DNA of 64,000 bases from a virus. The stretch covers positions 48,168-112,167 of the IMG/VR virus record IMGVR_UViG_3300042445_001170; one strand, 5' to 3'. A model generated the notes under the pieces. That model did no database searches. It saw only the letters and a list, made by a program, of their open reading frames with translations, and was not told the DNA's origin. How positions within the stretch are numbered: the stretch's first letter is position 1; the number at the start of each line of letters is the position of its first letter. The position numbers and the translations under genes were made by a program. Below, one piece after another: positions 54,131 to 61,105 of this stretch.

Positions 54131-54748
54131 CTATGAAATTATCTTACTTCTTTTAAACATGAAAGCTGGGCACATGTACTTATTGCCAGAAACAAGTGGA
54201 GTTGAGGCATGAAAATATGGTTTTACTGAAGGGAATATGACAAGGCTGCCAGCTTCTGGCTTAATCTTTATGTCCTGTTCTGGGAATGCTAGGTCTCCTC
54301 CAACGTAGTCATCGTTTAAATAAAGAACAATTGAGGCAGTTAGTCTTGCCTCATCGTCATCTTCTTCACAATCTATGTGGGGCCCCATTTGAGCTGGTGG
54401 GAAATACTTTCTTATTGTAACTTCATTCGGCAAAAACCCTAAATCTTTATTTAAAGATTCGGAATAGTCTGCTACGCACAAATTAATTGCATTAAGTATT
54501 GTAGCCACAATTAAAGCATATCTTTTATCTACATCGTTGTTTGACTGTGGGGCAGTGAAGGCACCAGACTTGTATTCTCCAAAAATATCATTTGGGTTAT
54601 TGCTTGATGTCCATCTCATCCATTTTGTTAAATGAGCATTTTCTTGAGATAGGACATCTAGCCTTTCAATTTCTTTTACAAACTCGTTTGGGTTGGCAAT
54701 AACATTTTTATAATAATAAATGTTATTATCAAGAAGTTCTTTTATCAT
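54131..54748 (-). CDS. 2OG-Fe(II) oxygenase (cluster member 6)
   Basis: The ATG at 54748 forms ATGA with the upstream stop and gives 205 residues; a start at 54793 would overlap by 49 bp. Iron ligands His124-x-Asp126 (PHID) and His180 (YFHA), with Lys190 as 2OG ligand candidate; YLNDDYVGGDLAFPEQ and KPEAGSLVIFPS match the group. The acidic loop after the HxD (EEDDDE) is unique to this member. Prolyl-4-hydroxylase class by family knowledge; substrate unknown. Confidence 0.9.
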   Translation of the reverse strand: MIKELLDNNIYYYKNVIANPNEFVKEIERLDVLSQENAHLTKWMRWTSSNNPNDIFGEYKSGAFTAPQSNNDVDKRYALIVATILNAINLCVADYSESLNKDLGFLPNEVTIRKYFPPAQMGPHIDCEEDDDEARLTASIVLYLNDDYVGGDLAFPEQDIKIKPEAGSLVIFPSVKPYFHASTPLVSGNKYMCPAFMFKRSKIIS

Positions 54749-55443
54749 TCTCTGCCTTCTGGCATTACTGGTTTGCCTTCTGGTGTTGCCCACTTTTTAT
54801 AAATCTTTTCTTGTTCTGCTCTTACTGCCTTTAATTCTGTTGCCCAAGCTTCTCTCTGCTCTTCAGTATATTCTATGCTAGCATCATCCCAAAATGAACC
54901 GATTGTATATCTTATGCCACCCTTTACTGTAGTAACCATATGCTCTCGTGTATGTCCACCAGCAAATATTGCAGTTAGACCAACCTTTGGCTTTATGTCG
55001 ATATCGCTATCCTTAAACTTTAGGTGACCACCTTCAAAATCATCATTTAAATAAATAAATACCGCATACTTACTTCTTTCAAATGCTGTAGGGTTTCCAA
55101 GTTCATCTGAGTTGTCGGAATGATAGTCTGCAAAAGCGCCCTCAATCCATCTCTGTGCATGGTAGCTAACTTCAGAAACTTCAAACCCTAAAAGCTCTTC
55201 AGTCTTTGCTTTTATTTTTTCTTTGAGCTGATTAAAGAAATCTTCTGGCAAACCAAAAAGTTTTAAATTAGGGTCTGAAGGCCAGTATCCCATAGCTTCT
55301 GATCCATAAAATGATATCTCGTTCCACTTTAATATCTTGTTTTCAACCAAAAAATCAAAATAATTTATAATAGCAGAACAGGTTTTTTGATCTACAAAAT
55401 TTTCTACTATAAAGAATTCATCTCTTATTTTTGGAATTGGCAT
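54745..55443 (-). CDS. 2OG-Fe(II) oxygenase (cluster member 5)
   Basis: The 232-residue protein has His108-x-Asp110 (YHSD), His168 (REHMV) and Arg178 (GGIRYT) in place of the Lys seen in some siblings. It has YLNDDFEGGHLKF and a C-terminal charged helix (EEQREAWATELKAVRAEQEK) that the other members lack. It overlaps the next gene by 4 bp and follows the previous one by 1 base. Confidence 0.9.
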   Translation of the reverse strand: MPIPKIRDEFFIVENFVDQKTCSAIINYFDFLVENKILKWNEISFYGSEAMGYWPSDPNLKLFGLPEDFFNQLKEKIKAKTEELLGFEVSEVSYHAQRWIEGAFADYHSDNSDELGNPTAFERSKYAVFIYLNDDFEGGHLKFKDSDIDIKPKVGLTAIFAGGHTREHMVTTVKGGIRYTIGSFWDDASIEYTEEQREAWATELKAVRAEQEKIYKKWATPEGKPVMPEGRE

Positions 55444-55444
55444 G

Positions 55445-56227
55445 TCAGTATCCTAAATTCTTTCTTTCAGAATATCTCATGTTTGCTGGGTTTTCTCTTT
55501 CAATTCTTTTTTGCTCCATCTTGGCCCATGTATAAGCTCCATAGTGCTTTTGATTTGCAATCCATTGTGGGTGACCATCATAATAGTATTGGATAAAGTT
55601 TCTTATAAAGAACTTGTTGCCATTTCTAATTGTTCTTACTCCATGGAAATAAGGGTCTTGTGAAGGGAATACAAGGATGTCTCCAGCTTTTGGCTTATAT
55701 GGGAAATATTCTTCTCCTATATAAAACTCAATGTCTCCGCCCTCATAATCATCATTGATGTATGTTGTACATGTAAGCAAAAACTTTGGACCAGGCATAT
55801 CTCTTTCTGAAATAATAAAGTCTGTGTGGTACTGCATTGACATTTCGTTTCCCATTGTATCAACATTTGCATCATATTTTGAAAAAGATGATGTCATTAA
55901 TTTAGCTGATTCTGGCAATACAATCCCGTATGTATTTTTGTAATCTTCAATAGCAGTATTATAAGCCTCATAGACTCTATCTGAAAGCATCTTTTCTTCA
56001 TCGTATCTTGGGCCGAATTCTCTAGGCTCATCCTCATTATGTTTTTGTTGAGAGTATGTTCCAAATATTGACCACTCGTCCCAATTTCTTAAATAGTATC
56101 TGCCTTCTGCATCGTGATCTGACTCTTTCATGATTCTATACAACTCGTCAGCATCTGGGAGAAGCCCCTGGTATATTCTTACATTTGGCAAAAGCTCAAA
56201 AGATGTATACTCATAATTATTTGTCAT
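55445..56227 (-). CDS. 2OG-Fe(II) oxygenase (cluster member 4)
   Basis: The 260-residue protein has His134-x-Asp136 (YHTD), His195 (YFHG), and Lys205 or Arg209 as likely 2OG ligand. YINDDYEGGDIEF and KPKAGDILVFPSQ are the group motifs. The C-terminal 50 residues (GHPQWIANQKHYG) resemble the end of the 11760-12731 oxygenase (SQEWADGIAKYG), so these two may share a sub-family and substrate. Confidence 0.9.
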   Translation of the reverse strand: MTNNYEYTSFELLPNVRIYQGLLPDADELYRIMKESDHDAEGRYYLRNWDEWSIFGTYSQQKHNEDEPREFGPRYDEEKMLSDRVYEAYNTAIEDYKNTYGIVLPESAKLMTSSFSKYDANVDTMGNEMSMQYHTDFIISERDMPGPKFLLTCTTYINDDYEGGDIEFYIGEEYFPYKPKAGDILVFPSQDPYFHGVRTIRNGNKFFIRNFIQYYYDGHPQWIANQKHYGAYTWAKMEQKRIERENPANMRYSERKNLGY

Positions 56228-56891
56228 TGTCTACTCTACCTAATCTAGTTATTGTCCAAAAGAATGGTGCGGTGTATCTTGTTCCGCTTGTTACTTTTGT
56301 TACCCCATGAATATAGTTCTTATCTCCTGGGAAAAAATATGCAGCCCTTGGCTTTGGTTTAAACTTTATATTTTGCAATGGGAAGAACAGCTCTCCACCT
56401 TCATAATCGTCATTCAGATAGAATACAGTTCCTATGTCATACCAAGGAAACTCATTCTCTGTTCCAGCATCTGGGCCTTCGTGAAGCTCTTTATCCGCAT
56501 GTGGGAATTGCATTGCTCCTACTGGCCACCTTACTATAGCTGCGTCAGTAGGTGAAACCTCTACATCAAACTTCTCTCTAATGTGAGGAGTCATTCTTTT
56601 CACAACAAGATTTAATATTCTAACAACTTCTGGGTCAGCTTTCATTAAGGAGTCTTTAGTTGCAACTCTATCTTCCCATACTCTGTGGTCATAAATAATA
56701 TTTCCGTTTTCGTTCCACTGTGACTCTGTGACGTCCCAAATTTTATTGTTTCTTGCAAAATTTAAAAGATATTCTTGTTCTTCTAGCGTGACCATGTCCT
56801 CTAGCTCTACTACATTATCTGGTGAGTTGCCGAAATGACCAGATGGGGTAATTGACATTCTTGCAAACCTAGCTCTTTTTGTATATTCCAT
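56217..56891 (-). CDS. 2OG-Fe(II) oxygenase (cluster member 3)
   Basis: The 224-residue protein has His131-x-Asp133 (PHAD), His195 (YIHG) and Arg205 (SGTRYT). Group motifs YLNDDYEGGELFFP and FKPKPRAAYFFPG. The N-terminal 100 residues are helical and differ from the siblings. It overlaps the next gene by 11 bp. Confidence 0.9.
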   Translation of the reverse strand: MEYTKRARFARMSITPSGHFGNSPDNVVELEDMVTLEEQEYLLNFARNNKIWDVTESQWNENGNIIYDHRVWEDRVATKDSLMKADPEVVRILNLVVKRMTPHIREKFDVEVSPTDAAIVRWPVGAMQFPHADKELHEGPDAGTENEFPWYDIGTVFYLNDDYEGGELFFPLQNIKFKPKPRAAYFFPGDKNYIHGVTKVTSGTRYTAPFFWTITRLGRVDNDK

Positions 56892-56898
56892 TTTTCAC

Positions 56899-57627
56899 CT
56901 ATTCATATTTCTTTAAAGACCTGACGTTGAGCTTATACGCTCCACCATCTTTTGTTCTAAACTTTTTTGCCTGCTGGTTGTGCCTTTTTTCTATTTCATC
57001 TTTAGAATAGAATTTTTTTTCCATCTTCCAGTCTTCTCTTTTATATGGTATTAATTGCATGTAAGGTGTTCCTGCTGGAATGGTGCCCTCAAAATCTTTT
57101 TTAAGAAAAAATGGCATTAGGCCAGGAGTATCCATCTTATCATTATCTATTATAGCAGAAGTGGTAATAAATGGTAAATCAAATCTATTTATTGGATGAA
57201 TGTACATTACGCTATATCCATCTGGAACGGATGGCGCCCAGTTTGGATACCAGTGAAAATGATAGTCATCGCATCCAATTGGTGTTGGGAAACTTTTCAT
57301 TGGCTGTCTCACTCCTATAAAATCCTCATAGCCAGCTTCCGTTTTTACAAAAGTAGTTCCATCTGTATTCTTTTTAAAAGTTATATTACATGGTGTTACG
57401 TAAACATATCCGCTTATAAATATATCAAGTAGTCCTGGACATGATCTAAATGTTCTTACTGGACCGCCCTCTGTATTTAAATATGGCTCCTGGGTATTTG
57501 GGTCAATTTCAAATTTTGGAGCATCCTTAAACCATTCTGGCATTAAAGACTTTGTGGTCTGCGGAGCATACGAATCAGAAATAATGTTATATAGCCTATT
57601 AGAATGAAATGTTATTTTATTTGTCAT
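56899..57627 (-). CDS. Uncharacterised beta-barrel protein in the oxygenase operon
   Basis: The 242-residue protein has PEWFKDAP, a Cys-containing CPGLLDIFISGYV, a central Trp/His-rich GCDDYHFHWYPNW, then TTSAIIDNDKMDTPGLMPFF and IPAGTPYMQLIPYKREDW. The AGTP...P...E segment also occurs in the next gene (DUF6065-like), so both probably share a barrel fold. Proteins of this type occur in other phages next to 2OG oxygenases, as far as I recall. No HxD...H set is present. Function unknown. Confidence 0.7.
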   Translation of the reverse strand: MTNKITFHSNRLYNIISDSYAPQTTKSLMPEWFKDAPKFEIDPNTQEPYLNTEGGPVRTFRSCPGLLDIFISGYVYVTPCNITFKKNTDGTTFVKTEAGYEDFIGVRQPMKSFPTPIGCDDYHFHWYPNWAPSVPDGYSVMYIHPINRFDLPFITTSAIIDNDKMDTPGLMPFFLKKDFEGTIPAGTPYMQLIPYKREDWKMEKKFYSKDEIEKRHNQQAKKFRTKDGGAYKLNVRSLKKYE

Positions 57628-58321
57628 TTACCCGTAGCCTCAAAGTCTTGGTCTCGTGTTCACCGACAACTTTTCCCTTATGATCCGTTGCGTTCCTATA
57701 GAAACCCGCCCACTTACCAGACTGATTAATTTTATCTACTGTCATTCCGTATTCTCTTCCATCGTAGGCCGATCCGACATAGCCCTTGCCATCATAAAGA
57801 TCTACCTCATATCCATTAATTTCTTTTAGTGATATTGGAAGTATTACGGCAACGGGTGTGCCAGCTTTTATGGTTATAACTTTTCCTGGTGAAGTAACTC
57901 TCCATACGACTGGAACTTCCCCAGAAAAAAATGATGTTGTTAATAAAGTTGTAAATGCTTGTGCTCCATCTATAAAAAAGTTGGGGGCTGGCATTGTTAG
58001 GATTGTTGTGTTTTTATCAGTCTTAAATGTAAGTCCAGTTATAAAGCTTATTGTTGCATTAGACCTATTTGTATGAACATATTTTTCTCCAGAAAGTACT
58101 TTAATGTGTATGGGCTGGCTGTCTGATATTCCGTCCCAAATAAAGGAGATGTCTTCTGGGAAGGATATTCCCCATCCTAAAGTATTAGATAGGCTGACTG
58201 GAAAACAGTTATATGCATGTCTGTCTGCAGTCTCATCCATCCATTCTCTATTTACTTTTATTTGTTCTATTTTTGCTGGGTTGTCGCCAGTCTTAAAAAC
58301 ATTTATTTTACGCATATCCAT
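57617..58321 (-). CDS. DUF6065-like protein
   Basis: The 234-residue protein has the layout I associate with DUF6065: REWMDETADRHAYNCFPVS, LSNTLGWGISFPEDISFIWDG, then strands to IKAGTPVAVILPI, and a Tyr/Gly-rich end with NQSGKWAGFYRNATDHKG. It is a beta-barrel-like protein of unknown activity, found in phages and bacteria near oxygenases or methyltransferases. Overlaps both neighbours by 11-14 bp. Confidence 0.7.
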   Translation of the reverse strand: MDMRKINVFKTGDNPAKIEQIKVNREWMDETADRHAYNCFPVSLSNTLGWGISFPEDISFIWDGISDSQPIHIKVLSGEKYVHTNRSNATISFITGLTFKTDKNTTILTMPAPNFFIDGAQAFTTLLTTSFFSGEVPVVWRVTSPGKVITIKAGTPVAVILPISLKEINGYEVDLYDGKGYVGSAYDGREYGMTVDKINQSGKWAGFYRNATDHKGKVVGEHETKTLRLRVNDK

Positions 58322-59006
58322 CTGTATACTTTTTCTCTATCTCTCGATATGCTGGTGTGTGTGGTGCTTCTAGGTAATCAAGCATTGTTACTATAGAATA
58401 CTTTGTTCCGCTTGTTACTGGAAGTGAGGCGTGAGAGAATAAGTATGAAGAAGGGAATAGATAAAGGTCTCCCGCCTGTGGCTTTATTTTTAAATTAAAC
58501 TTATCAAAAAATAACTCCCCGCCTTCGTAATCATCGTTAATATACCCAACTGAAGATAGCACACAGATATAGGAGTATCCGTGGTCAGAGTGTACTTGAA
58601 AATGCTGCCCTGGTCCATATTTAACAAAGTTAAAAGACTCCCAGTAATTTAGTGGTGCAAGGTTAAACTTTTGTCTATAGTCTTCTACTGGGCCTAGCTG
58701 TGCATCTTTAGCATTTTCCCATATTGATTCTAGTTTAATTTGATCTGCGCTTTTGCCATCATCATCCTGTTTGTTTTTCTTAATTTTAAAATCAAATGCG
58801 TCTCTATACTTTAAATCGCTCAAAGCATAACCAGTTGTGGCCTGCTTCCATTTATAAGTTGCATGTGGTGAGTCTGAGTATCCAACACCTTCGGCATCTG
58901 GGTCTCTGGATAAACATTCTTCAAGCCTGTTAATCAAATTCATTTCTTTTGGAAATACATTTCTATATACAAGAACTCCTGGCGCTAACATCTCTGGCTG
59001 ATTCAT
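58308..59006 (-). CDS. 2OG-Fe(II) oxygenase (cluster member 2)
   Basis: The 232-residue protein has His139-x-Asp141 (HSDHG), His192 (FSHAS) and Lys202 (GTKYS). Group motifs YINDDYEGGELFF and KPQAGDLYLFPSS. It is very similar along its length to the first cluster gene (shared FVKYGPG, YRDAFDFKI, SYLFSHA), so these two are a recent tandem duplication. SD GGAGGG is strong, suggesting independent initiation. Confidence 0.92.
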   Translation of the reverse strand: MNQPEMLAPGVLVYRNVFPKEMNLINRLEECLSRDPDAEGVGYSDSPHATYKWKQATTGYALSDLKYRDAFDFKIKKNKQDDDGKSADQIKLESIWENAKDAQLGPVEDYRQKFNLAPLNYWESFNFVKYGPGQHFQVHSDHGYSYICVLSSVGYINDDYEGGELFFDKFNLKIKPQAGDLYLFPSSYLFSHASLPVTSGTKYSIVTMLDYLEAPHTPAYREIEKKYTDGYA

Positions 59007-59007
59007 A

Positions 59008-59715
59008 CTACCCTCCCATATTCAATTTAGTTTTATTTTTTAGTCTAACAAAGCTGTCAAACTCATCTCCGTGAGAATTATCGTTATAGTCTGTCATTGT
59101 TACTACAGAGTATTTTATGCCATCAGAAACTGGCATAGCTGCGTGTGAAAATAAATATGTTGAAGGGAAGATGTAAAGATCCCCAGCTTTAGGTTTAATT
59201 TGTAAACCAAGTTTTGGGAAAACAATTTCTCCGCCAACATAGTCATCGTTTATATAGCCAACTAATGAAACTGTTGACACATAAGAAAACCCATGATCTG
59301 CATGCTCTTTAAAGTAATTGCCTGGACCATATTTAACAAAGTTCATTTTTTCCCAGAAATTCATTTGTATGCTATACATGTTGCAATAGTCTTGAAGAGC
59401 TGGGTTTTGTGCGTCATATGAGTCTTGCCATATTTTTTCAAATACAATTTGATGCTTGTCTTTTTCGGGGAAGCTTGTTTTTTCAATTTTAAAATCAAAG
59501 CAGTCTCTATAGTCTATAGATTTCTTACTGCCGCCGACGGTAGCTCGTTGCCACCTGTAACCTTTAGACAAAGAAAGCTCTTCCTCTAGTCTTTGGGAAA
59601 GATTTAAATCTTTTTTAATTACATCTCTGTAAACCCAAAGTCCAGGGAAAAGCTGTTCTTTTGAAGACCATGTCTCCGATAAATCATTTTGCATTTCTGC
59701 CATTAAGCCTATCAT
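59008..59715 (-). CDS. 2OG-Fe(II) oxygenase (cluster member 1)
   Basis: The 235-residue protein has His138-x-Asp140 (EHADHG), His191 (FSHAA) and Lys201 (GIKYS), with YINDDYVGGEIVFP and KPKAGDLYIFPST between. The ATG at 59715 lies 6 nt after the -10 and would be leaderless; ATG 59703 with TAGG upstream is the alternative. As first gene of the oxygenase operon it should be the most strongly expressed. Confidence 0.9.
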   Translation of the reverse strand: MIGLMAEMQNDLSETWSSKEQLFPGLWVYRDVIKKDLNLSQRLEEELSLSKGYRWQRATVGGSKKSIDYRDCFDFKIEKTSFPEKDKHQIVFEKIWQDSYDAQNPALQDYCNMYSIQMNFWEKMNFVKYGPGNYFKEHADHGFSYVSTVSLVGYINDDYVGGEIVFPKLGLQIKPKAGDLYIFPSTYLFSHAAMPVSDGIKYSVVTMTDYNDNSHGDEFDSFVRLKNKTKLNMGG

Positions 59716-59776: not shown

Positions 59777-61105
59777 TTAGATCTTTAAGTTGTGTAGCAG
59801 AATTCCATCTGCAACGAACCAGTCTTGTGGCTCTGTATTTAATCTATATACTGTTGCTACTCCATCAACCATTGTGATTGATTCGATTAGCTCGTCTGTA
59901 AGAGATCCATCTTCATTTACATGAACAAGGTAGTCTCCTTCAACTATATCTGCTGAAACTTGAACCTGGTACATGCCTTCTCTTTTAATGAATACATGCT
60001 GTACTAGAGATACTTTCTTTGACTCATTGCCATTGAAATACATTACCTGCGGTACAATTTTACCAATTTTTGAAGTTACTGTTGCTTCAACATTTCCTGA
60101 AGAAACTAGGCTGTCTGAATTCCATAGTGCTAGATCAAACTCTGACTCTTCTTGTGAGCCAACTAATGGGATTCCAGCCAAATCTACTGAGACGATTGTA
60201 TCTCCGACTGCTAGATCTTTAATAGCTTTCATTCCTGTTGTTGTTTTAATAAGTGTGTTTTCTTCTATGCATCCGCCAAACCCTGGAGGAGAGAAGAACC
60301 CTGGTGGTGCAAAGAACCCTGGAGGACCGAAGAACCCTGGTGGTGCAAAGAACCCTGGAGGACCGAAGAACCCTGGTGGTGCAAAGAACCCTGGAGGAGA
60401 AAAGAACCCTGGAGGGGAAAAGAACCCTGGAGGGGAAAAGAACCCTGGAGGTGCAAAGAACCCTGGAGGAGAAAAGAACCCTGGAGGGGAAAAGAAGCTT
60501 GGTGGTGAGAAGAATGTAGTTATGCTATTAGACGCACCTGAAGTCTGTCCTGAACCAATTGCATTTGTTGCATATACTGTGTAGGTCTGAGCAGTTCCTT
60601 GCTCTTGTGATACTGAAACTGATGTGGAGGTTGTGTTACCAGTCTTTCCATCAGATGATGCCCAGTAATAGGCACCTAGTGGTGATCCTCCGTTTGCTGG
60701 AGTAGACCATGAAACTACGTCCACTCCTGCTGAAGATGATGAAGCCGAAACTCCTGTTACTTGAGCTGGAACAGTAGCTGAAAGCGGTGTCAATGTTGCT
60801 TGTGTTGAAGGACCATTACCAACTGCATTAGATGGAGTTATTGTAAATGTATAGTTTGTTCCACCAGCAAGGCCTGTAAAAGACTTTGTAGTAGAGGTTG
60901 ATGTTTGTGTTGTTGTTGCTGGATTTGACACTATTGTATATAGTGTTGCTGCTGGTGAATCGGATGGAAGCGTCCAAGACAAGTTCGCTGAACCGTTATT
61001 GAACGCCCCTCCGTTAACACCAGTGGCAGTAAATCCAGTAACCGCCTTTGGCTCCAGGAAGTTGTCCTGTGCTGAAGACTTAATACCGATTTTCTTATTT
61101 GCCAT
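59777..61105 (-). CDS. Fn3 - FFxPPG repeat - Hint domain virion protein
   Basis: The 442-residue protein has two Fn3 domains (about 20-110 and 113-193), 13 tandem hexapeptides FF(S/A/G)PP(G/S) at 198-275, and a Hint/intein-like domain at 279-442. Hint features: Cys279 after F-G-G, block A-like CIEENTLIKT, MKAIKDLAVGDTI, the SLVQHVF His motif, and a C-terminal VYRLN...WFVADGILLHN. Asn439 is followed by LKI and the stop, not by Cys/Ser/Thr, so splicing is not expected; cleavage or ester formation at Cys279 is. SD AGGAG. Probably a fibre or surface protein that processes itself. Confidence 0.85.
   Translation of the reverse strand: MANKKIGIKSSAQDNFLEPKAVTGFTATGVNGGAFNNGSANLSWTLPSDSPAATLYTIVSNPATTTQTSTSTTKSFTGLAGGTNYTFTITPSNAVGNGPSTQATLTPLSATVPAQVTGVSASSSSAGVDVVSWSTPANGGSPLGAYYWASSDGKTGNTTSTSVSVSQEQGTAQTYTVYATNAIGSGQTSGASNSITTFFSPPSFFSPPGFFSPPGFFAPPGFFSPPGFFSPPGFFSPPGFFAPPGFFGPPGFFAPPGFFGPPGFFAPPGFFSPPGFGGCIEENTLIKTTTGMKAIKDLAVGDTIVSVDLAGIPLVGSQEESEFDLALWNSDSLVSSGNVEATVTSKIGKIVPQVMYFNGNESKKVSLVQHVFIKREGMYQVQVSADIVEGDYLVHVNEDGSLTDELIESITMVDGVATVYRLNTEPQDWFVADGILLHNLKI
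60281..60514 (-). repeat. 13 tandem 18-bp repeats encoding FFxPPG
   Basis: Units of 18 bp, plus-strand core AAGAACCCTGGAGG/TGG, differ mainly at the codon for Ser, Ala or Gly. The first unit has Ser for the last Gly. Copy number may vary by slippage. Confidence 0.95.

Follow-up and report, generated by a model that had tools for sequence, protein, structure and literature searches.

The C-terminus of a predicted fibre protein from a lake phage belongs to the Hint superfamily. As far as aligned relatives allow us to judge, this is a family-wide trait in which the reactive residues are conserved together with a very short, lysine-bearing tail, and it extends beyond what the original prediction had claimed. 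We propose that the Hint end may be a cap that processes itself much as type A bacterial intein-like (BIL) domains do and so departs from the fibre, whether or not the short tail is joined to the fibre in the process; our confidence in this reading is evenly balanced. The fold, position, conservation and exchangeability of the Hint end are established here.

The window, i.e. the whole stretch of DNA that was analysed, is 64,000 nucleotides long and forms the end of a virus record of 112 kb. The gene lies at 59777..61105 on the minus strand, as do all of its features given below, and encodes a protein of 442 amino acids in which a fibronectin type III (Fn3) domain, a rod of FFxPPG repeats and a Hint domain follow each other, an architecture also seen in 15 viral contigs. 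Its position suggests that the product is part of the virion. Of the Fn3 domains, in the plural, that the original prediction had named, one at residues 36-103 (60797..61000) is significant in Pfam (PF00041, E 2.2e-7, above the cut-off), whereas a second Fn3-like stretch at about residues 113-196 (60518..60769) is suggested by weak matches to tandem-Fn3 PDB sequences that extend to residue 191, below Pfam significance. The rod (residues 198-276, 60278..60514) can be read from the sequence as about 13 FFxPP[GS] hexapeptides, and there are 11 exact matches to FFxPPGFF in the DNA of the window, where shuffles lead us to expect 0. The repeat has a period of six residues, unlike the period of three of the Gly-X-Y repeat of collagen. 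It is followed by the Hint domain (59789..60271), which extends from Cys279 to Asn439 and is directly preceded by Gly-Gly. The reading frame and its coordinates, Cys279 at intein position 1 (60269..60271), the terminal His438-Asn439 of block G (59789..59794) and the tail of Leu-Lys-Ile before the stop (59780..59788) are all as first described.

Inteins, hedgehog proteins, BILs and bacterial toxins are all known to contain Hint domains. When the window protein is searched alone, the Pfam matches to Intein_splicing (9e-5), Hint_2 (0.003) and PT-HINT (E 0.06) all remain below the cut-off. Despite this the assignment to the Hint superfamily is solid, because it draws on both structure prediction and a family profile. 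An AF2 model of the window Hint domain, made with 39 diverse tails that were collected via the rod motif, reached a pLDDT of 94.9 and a pTM of 0.89, and the confident Hint fold that it predicts is the one whose lack had been named at the outset as a refutation; with the five closest, near-identical Hint sequences the pLDDT was 34. In a Foldseek search of the PDB with this model the best match was Tetrahymena BIL2 (1.4e-7), followed by the RadA intein, with Clostridium thermocellum BIL4 at 8.7e-7 and hedgehog at 5.5e-6, and every one of the top matches is an intein, a BIL or a hedgehog Hint domain. The best match of the family profile A2 among PDB sequences is likewise a BIL domain (2lwy, E 2.8e-7), so the suggested likeness to bacterial intein-like domains is upheld by structure matches and profile alike.

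With the type A BILs (e.g. 2lwy, C. thermocellum BIL4, and 6y75, Tetrahymena BIL2) the window domain shares the Hint fold, Cys1 and the C-terminal His-Asn. They have no conserved +1 nucleophile, and with Leu at +1 the window domain falls within their sequence definition. The phage family differs from them in that its domains invariably close the protein, save for a tail of 0-28 residues, and are fused to a phage rod, in that block B mostly carries Gln or Glu, and in that an invariant Asn358 and a near-invariant Pro426 belong to no known motif. Compared with class 1 inteins, the window domain lacks a +1 Cys, Ser or Thr as well as a C-extein, its clade has SxxQ in place of the TxxH of block B, and no close relative that we collected has a long C-extein. 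The description of a C-terminal Hint domain with no usable downstream extein is thus borne out, the stop coming three residues after the domain. That normal splicing is excluded holds for the ordinary class 1 route, but type A BILs can ligate through a freed amine, so that a +1 nucleophile is dispensable (PMC4031507).

Scanning IMG/VR for DNA that encodes FFxPPGFFxPPGF gave at least 119 stretches, and a Hint domain of the window family is found on 67 of 117 rod ORFs among the matches listed. With further scans the collection grew to at least 96 distinct domains, the window and a few jumbo-phage domains counted in. The relatives, at least 95 of them, come nearly all from freshwater phages and sit on FFxPPG rods, with a few on the collagen-like fibres of jumbo phages. 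Most are some 20-35% identical to the window domain, and near copies occur in 15 viral contigs (67-100% identity in the Hint domain), all with Cys1, HN and a tail of 3-7 residues. The whole 442-residue protein found nothing at 1e-3 in a tblastn search of the phages collection; the Hint part only, at a relaxed E-value, found the jumbo-phage relatives there. Weak matches in Vibrio 1.265.O, in a DNA methyltransferase and in LR756508 are true inteins in other genes and were excluded. The motif GGC[IV]EEN also picked up inteins of ribonucleotide reductase and DNA polymerase, which were left out too. Some phage contigs encode two Hint-ended family proteins each (L193/L198, L208/L209 and L217/L218).

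The relatives in Lupandier-group jumbo phages (Dickeya AD1 gp108 and NCTB BN7874_136), known through annotation, likewise combine a rod, an Ig-like domain and a C-terminal Hint domain and have short tails that end in Lys (HN-TDIVAKAEKK and HN-AVMVAKK); they differ from the window protein in their Gly-X-Y collagen rod and canonical TxxH. Next to such a Hint-ended collagen-like fibre lies NCTB BN7874_135 (L163, 4480-4941), a stand-alone Hint-like protein that lacks Cys1 and ends in HNKVD. NCTB BN7874_136 is already annotated as 'putative phage tail protein, contains intein domain', and in BFVD similar proteins of uncultured phages are named 'Hint domain containing' or 'Fibronectin type III'. We found no published description of the family in the non-subscription literature covered, and this large family of Hint-ended fibres is apparently undescribed.

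In every one of the 96 domains collected the Hint domain is C-terminal, with 0-28 residues beyond it. Position 1 is Cys in 84, Ser in 11 and Lys in one (Cys or Ser in 95/96), block B reads [ST]xx[HQE] in 95 of the 96 (54 Gln, 25 His and 16 Glu), and the last catalytic residue is Asn in 82, Asp in 11 and Ala in three (Asn or Asp in 93/96); the +1 residues are L, R, K, V, Y, G, A and T. The five catalytic positions rank 3 (Cys279), 8, 9, 10 and 11 in conservation among the 167 columns of a 47-row alignment, which by chance would have a probability of about 5e-7 if columns were exchangeable, a value that the rarity of Cys inflates somewhat. Substitutions at these positions are mostly to Ser1 and Asp, residues that inteins also use (PMC7664689). 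Given the conserved Cys/Ser1 and Asn/Asp, self-removal of the cap is the simplest reading. Counting against it, the terminal Asn/Asp is missing in three members and Cys1 in NCTB BN7874_135, so the fold can be retained where the chemistry is incomplete, and the strong conservation could have a structural cause. Asn358 (96/96 domains) and Pro426 (94/96), both invariant in the 47-row alignment, are more conserved than the catalytic residues, and neither is a known catalytic position.

Selection on the domain can also be followed at the DNA level. Against relatives, the dN/dS of the Hint domain is 0.03-0.28. Among 42 distinct DNA sequences from the one subgroup that ends in HNK-stop, the codons vary for Cys1 (25 TGC, 17 TGT), Asn (25 AAC, 17 AAT), Lys (37 AAG, 5 AAA) and the stop (28 TAA, 14 TAG). 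All of these changes are synonymous, and therefore each of the four is kept by selection, including a single Lys after the Asn. Such patterns indicate that the Hint domain is not decaying and that the residues after the Asn matter somehow. Phage genes often hold inteins, and with the +1 nucleophile and block B His missing one might think of an ordinary intein in decay that lost its C-extein by chance; since all 95 relatives collected share the C-terminal position and reach their stop within 0-28 residues of the domain, and since purifying selection is strong and the reactive residues are retained, we give this next to no credence. A split intein with its C-extein in the next gene was dropped, as the stop is conserved and no partner was seen; a search of the same virus record found no second Hint gene.

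The block motifs had been called intact, and this applies to Cys279 and His438-Asn439 but not to the histidines of blocks B and F, which in the window are Gln369 and Asp428. The stretch between Asn358 and Arg375, both invariant, aligns without gaps in the family, and there block B (residues 366-370, SLVQH, 59996..60010) has Ser366 for the Thr and Gln369 for the catalytic His, i.e. S366-L-V-Q369 and not TxxH; His370 neighbours Gln369, at a position that the family does not conserve. In most relatives the His has likewise given way to Gln, and in one clade to Glu. Some inteins function without a block B His (PMC7664689). The Ssp DnaB intein cannot spare this His when -1 is Gly, but bulky -1 residues can stand in for it (PMC6333167). 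The largest subgroup has Pro at -1 (35 of the 54 Gln members), which may affect the acyl shift. Phe stands there in all 15 readable members of the Glu clade and an aromatic residue in none of the 25 His members. The Phe of the Glu clade fits the published compensation, although a general link between a missing block B His and bulk at -1 was rejected, there being too few independent changes and the window, with Gln and Gly, not fitting. The YN-Gly-Cys clade (L046, L054, L068, L096, L106, L122, L134 and L145) has Glu in block B and always Phe before Cys1. By the Ssp DnaB precedent Gln369 with Gly278 at -1 is an unfavourable pair, which makes self-cleavage at Cys279 less certain than the original prediction had it, and it is mainly for this reason that we hold the cap at even confidence and no higher.

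The tails of relatives are VKM, YKWWLLM, LKMY, RKAF or a single Lys. Every HN member collected on an FFxPPG rod has a Lys at +1 or +2, and the members that combine TxxQ with HN have exactly one Lys after the Asn in 36 of 36 distinct cases. These tails raise the idea of micro-splicing, in which a BIL-type ligation would attach the tail of 1-7 residues to the rod end and leave a mature fibre of rod plus short basic tail. Besides the constant Lys and the purely synonymous variation of the lone Lys and the stop, this could draw on the Hint-less rod end PPRFGGGGLRFY (L048), which resembles a predicted product, PPRFFG-LKMY (L078), on other Hint-less rods that have PPAFK ends or short basic or aromatic tails, and on the reported splicing of type A BILs without a +1 nucleophile. 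The likeness of the tails was, however, judged by eye, Hint-less ends such as PPGFWD, GVFAV and Cys-rich ones do not match, the tails differ in the Ser1/Asp and YN-GC clades, and among the BILs studied cleavage products predominate. We regard such ligation as unlikely, and are equally sceptical of the broader idea of a widespread micro-splicing family with no +1 nucleophile whose mature fibre end would be made only after assembly. Short Hint-less rod proteins of about 110-130 amino acids (L066, L067, L061, L118 and L151) close with PPxFK, so that a Lys follows the rod.

The Hint end is also exchanged between fibres. Between the window and L161, dS is 0.71 in the N-terminal part and 0.10 in the Hint domain, and for L113 the values are 0.46 and 2.0. 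Clusters of N-terminal parts at 60% identity hold several Hint types and Hint-less fibres together; with N-terminal parts of at least 60% identity on fibres that lack it, the Hint domain is dispensable in the mature fibre. In L053 the same FFxPPG rod is followed by Pfam Peptidase_S74 (PF13884, E 7e-10), which is absent from the window protein. By these comparisons, the rod end is an exchange site for C-terminal modules. Such swapping of tip cassettes, and the different ends on near-identical N-terminal parts, would also suit a Hint-fold tip that never cleaves, staying on as an exchangeable or trimer-forming end with its conserved residues as structural leftovers; so would the loss of the block B His in most members and of Asn/Asp in three. 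A tip of this kind is possible but in our view doubtful, since conservation is near its highest at the five catalytic positions, where swaps mostly keep the chemistry (Cys/Ser and Asn/Asp), and it would leave a Cys1 in every copy of the fibre and the single Lys after the Asn (36/36, in one clade) unexplained.

The S74 domain, an intramolecular chaperone at the C-terminus of phage fibres, is known from other phages to cleave itself off when assembly is done. Its fold and chemistry are unrelated to those of Hint domains, and because it occupies the same place in L053 we favour an assembly-related purpose for the self-processing cap. We infer the catalysis, timing and role of the cap as follows. 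A newly made fibre would end in the Hint domain, and through an acyl shift at Gly278-Cys279 its rod end would come to sit on a thioester. Cyclisation of Asn439 would free the short tail. The thioester would then be hydrolysed, or captured by the amine of the tail itself, and the Hint domain would depart from a rod with or without the added Lys-bearing tail. Until the fibre is assembled, the cap probably aids the folding, register or solubility of the sticky FFxPPG rod.

The original prediction had also considered transfer to another nucleophile and a self-anchoring fibre, for which we saw neither a partner nor an acceptor motif. In a hedgehog-like variant the Cys279 thioester would pass the fibre C-terminus to another protein of the virion, to a lipid or to an amine of the host, for anchoring or cross-linking. 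The hedgehog Hog/Hint domain (1at0) is also C-terminal and cleaves off the N-terminal part; the hedgehog autoprocessing domain is matched by the predicted fold (E 5.5e-6), and the Ser1/Asp clade has no HN but retains [ST]xxH. Unlike Hog, the window domain has HN, lacks the block B His and, ending three residues after the Asn, has no sterol-recognition region. With no sterol- or lipid-binding extension seen either, such transfer is purely possible, and we rate it as highly improbable. The polymorphic toxins of the PT-HINT type (PMC3482391) likewise have filamentous repeats followed by a Hint domain near the C-terminus, whereas the window protein ends at its Hint domain with no toxin domain after it.

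To our knowledge, little is understood of what BIL domains do in nature, and the clear structural gene context of this family makes their role testable. If our reading is true, phage assembly would gain a fibre cap that removes itself, an analogue of S74 that uses different chemistry; the family would also provide a natural set of Hint domains in which Gln or Glu has taken the place of the block B His, and could supply short tags for C-terminal cleavage or ligation.

The portal protein encoded in the window is closest to those of Streptomyces phages, e.g. BillNye and StarPlatinum (55-58% identity), and therefore the host is probably an actinobacterium. Directly downstream of the rod gene, at 54131-59715, lie six genes for 2OG-Fe(II) oxygenases (PF13640), interspersed with a DUF6065 gene (57617-58321) and an unassigned gene (56899-57627). 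Elsewhere, ORFs of the 2OG-Fe(II) oxygenase type occur near 94 of 116 rod loci among the matches listed, as a raw count. The two may be connected through hydroxylation of prolines in the rod.
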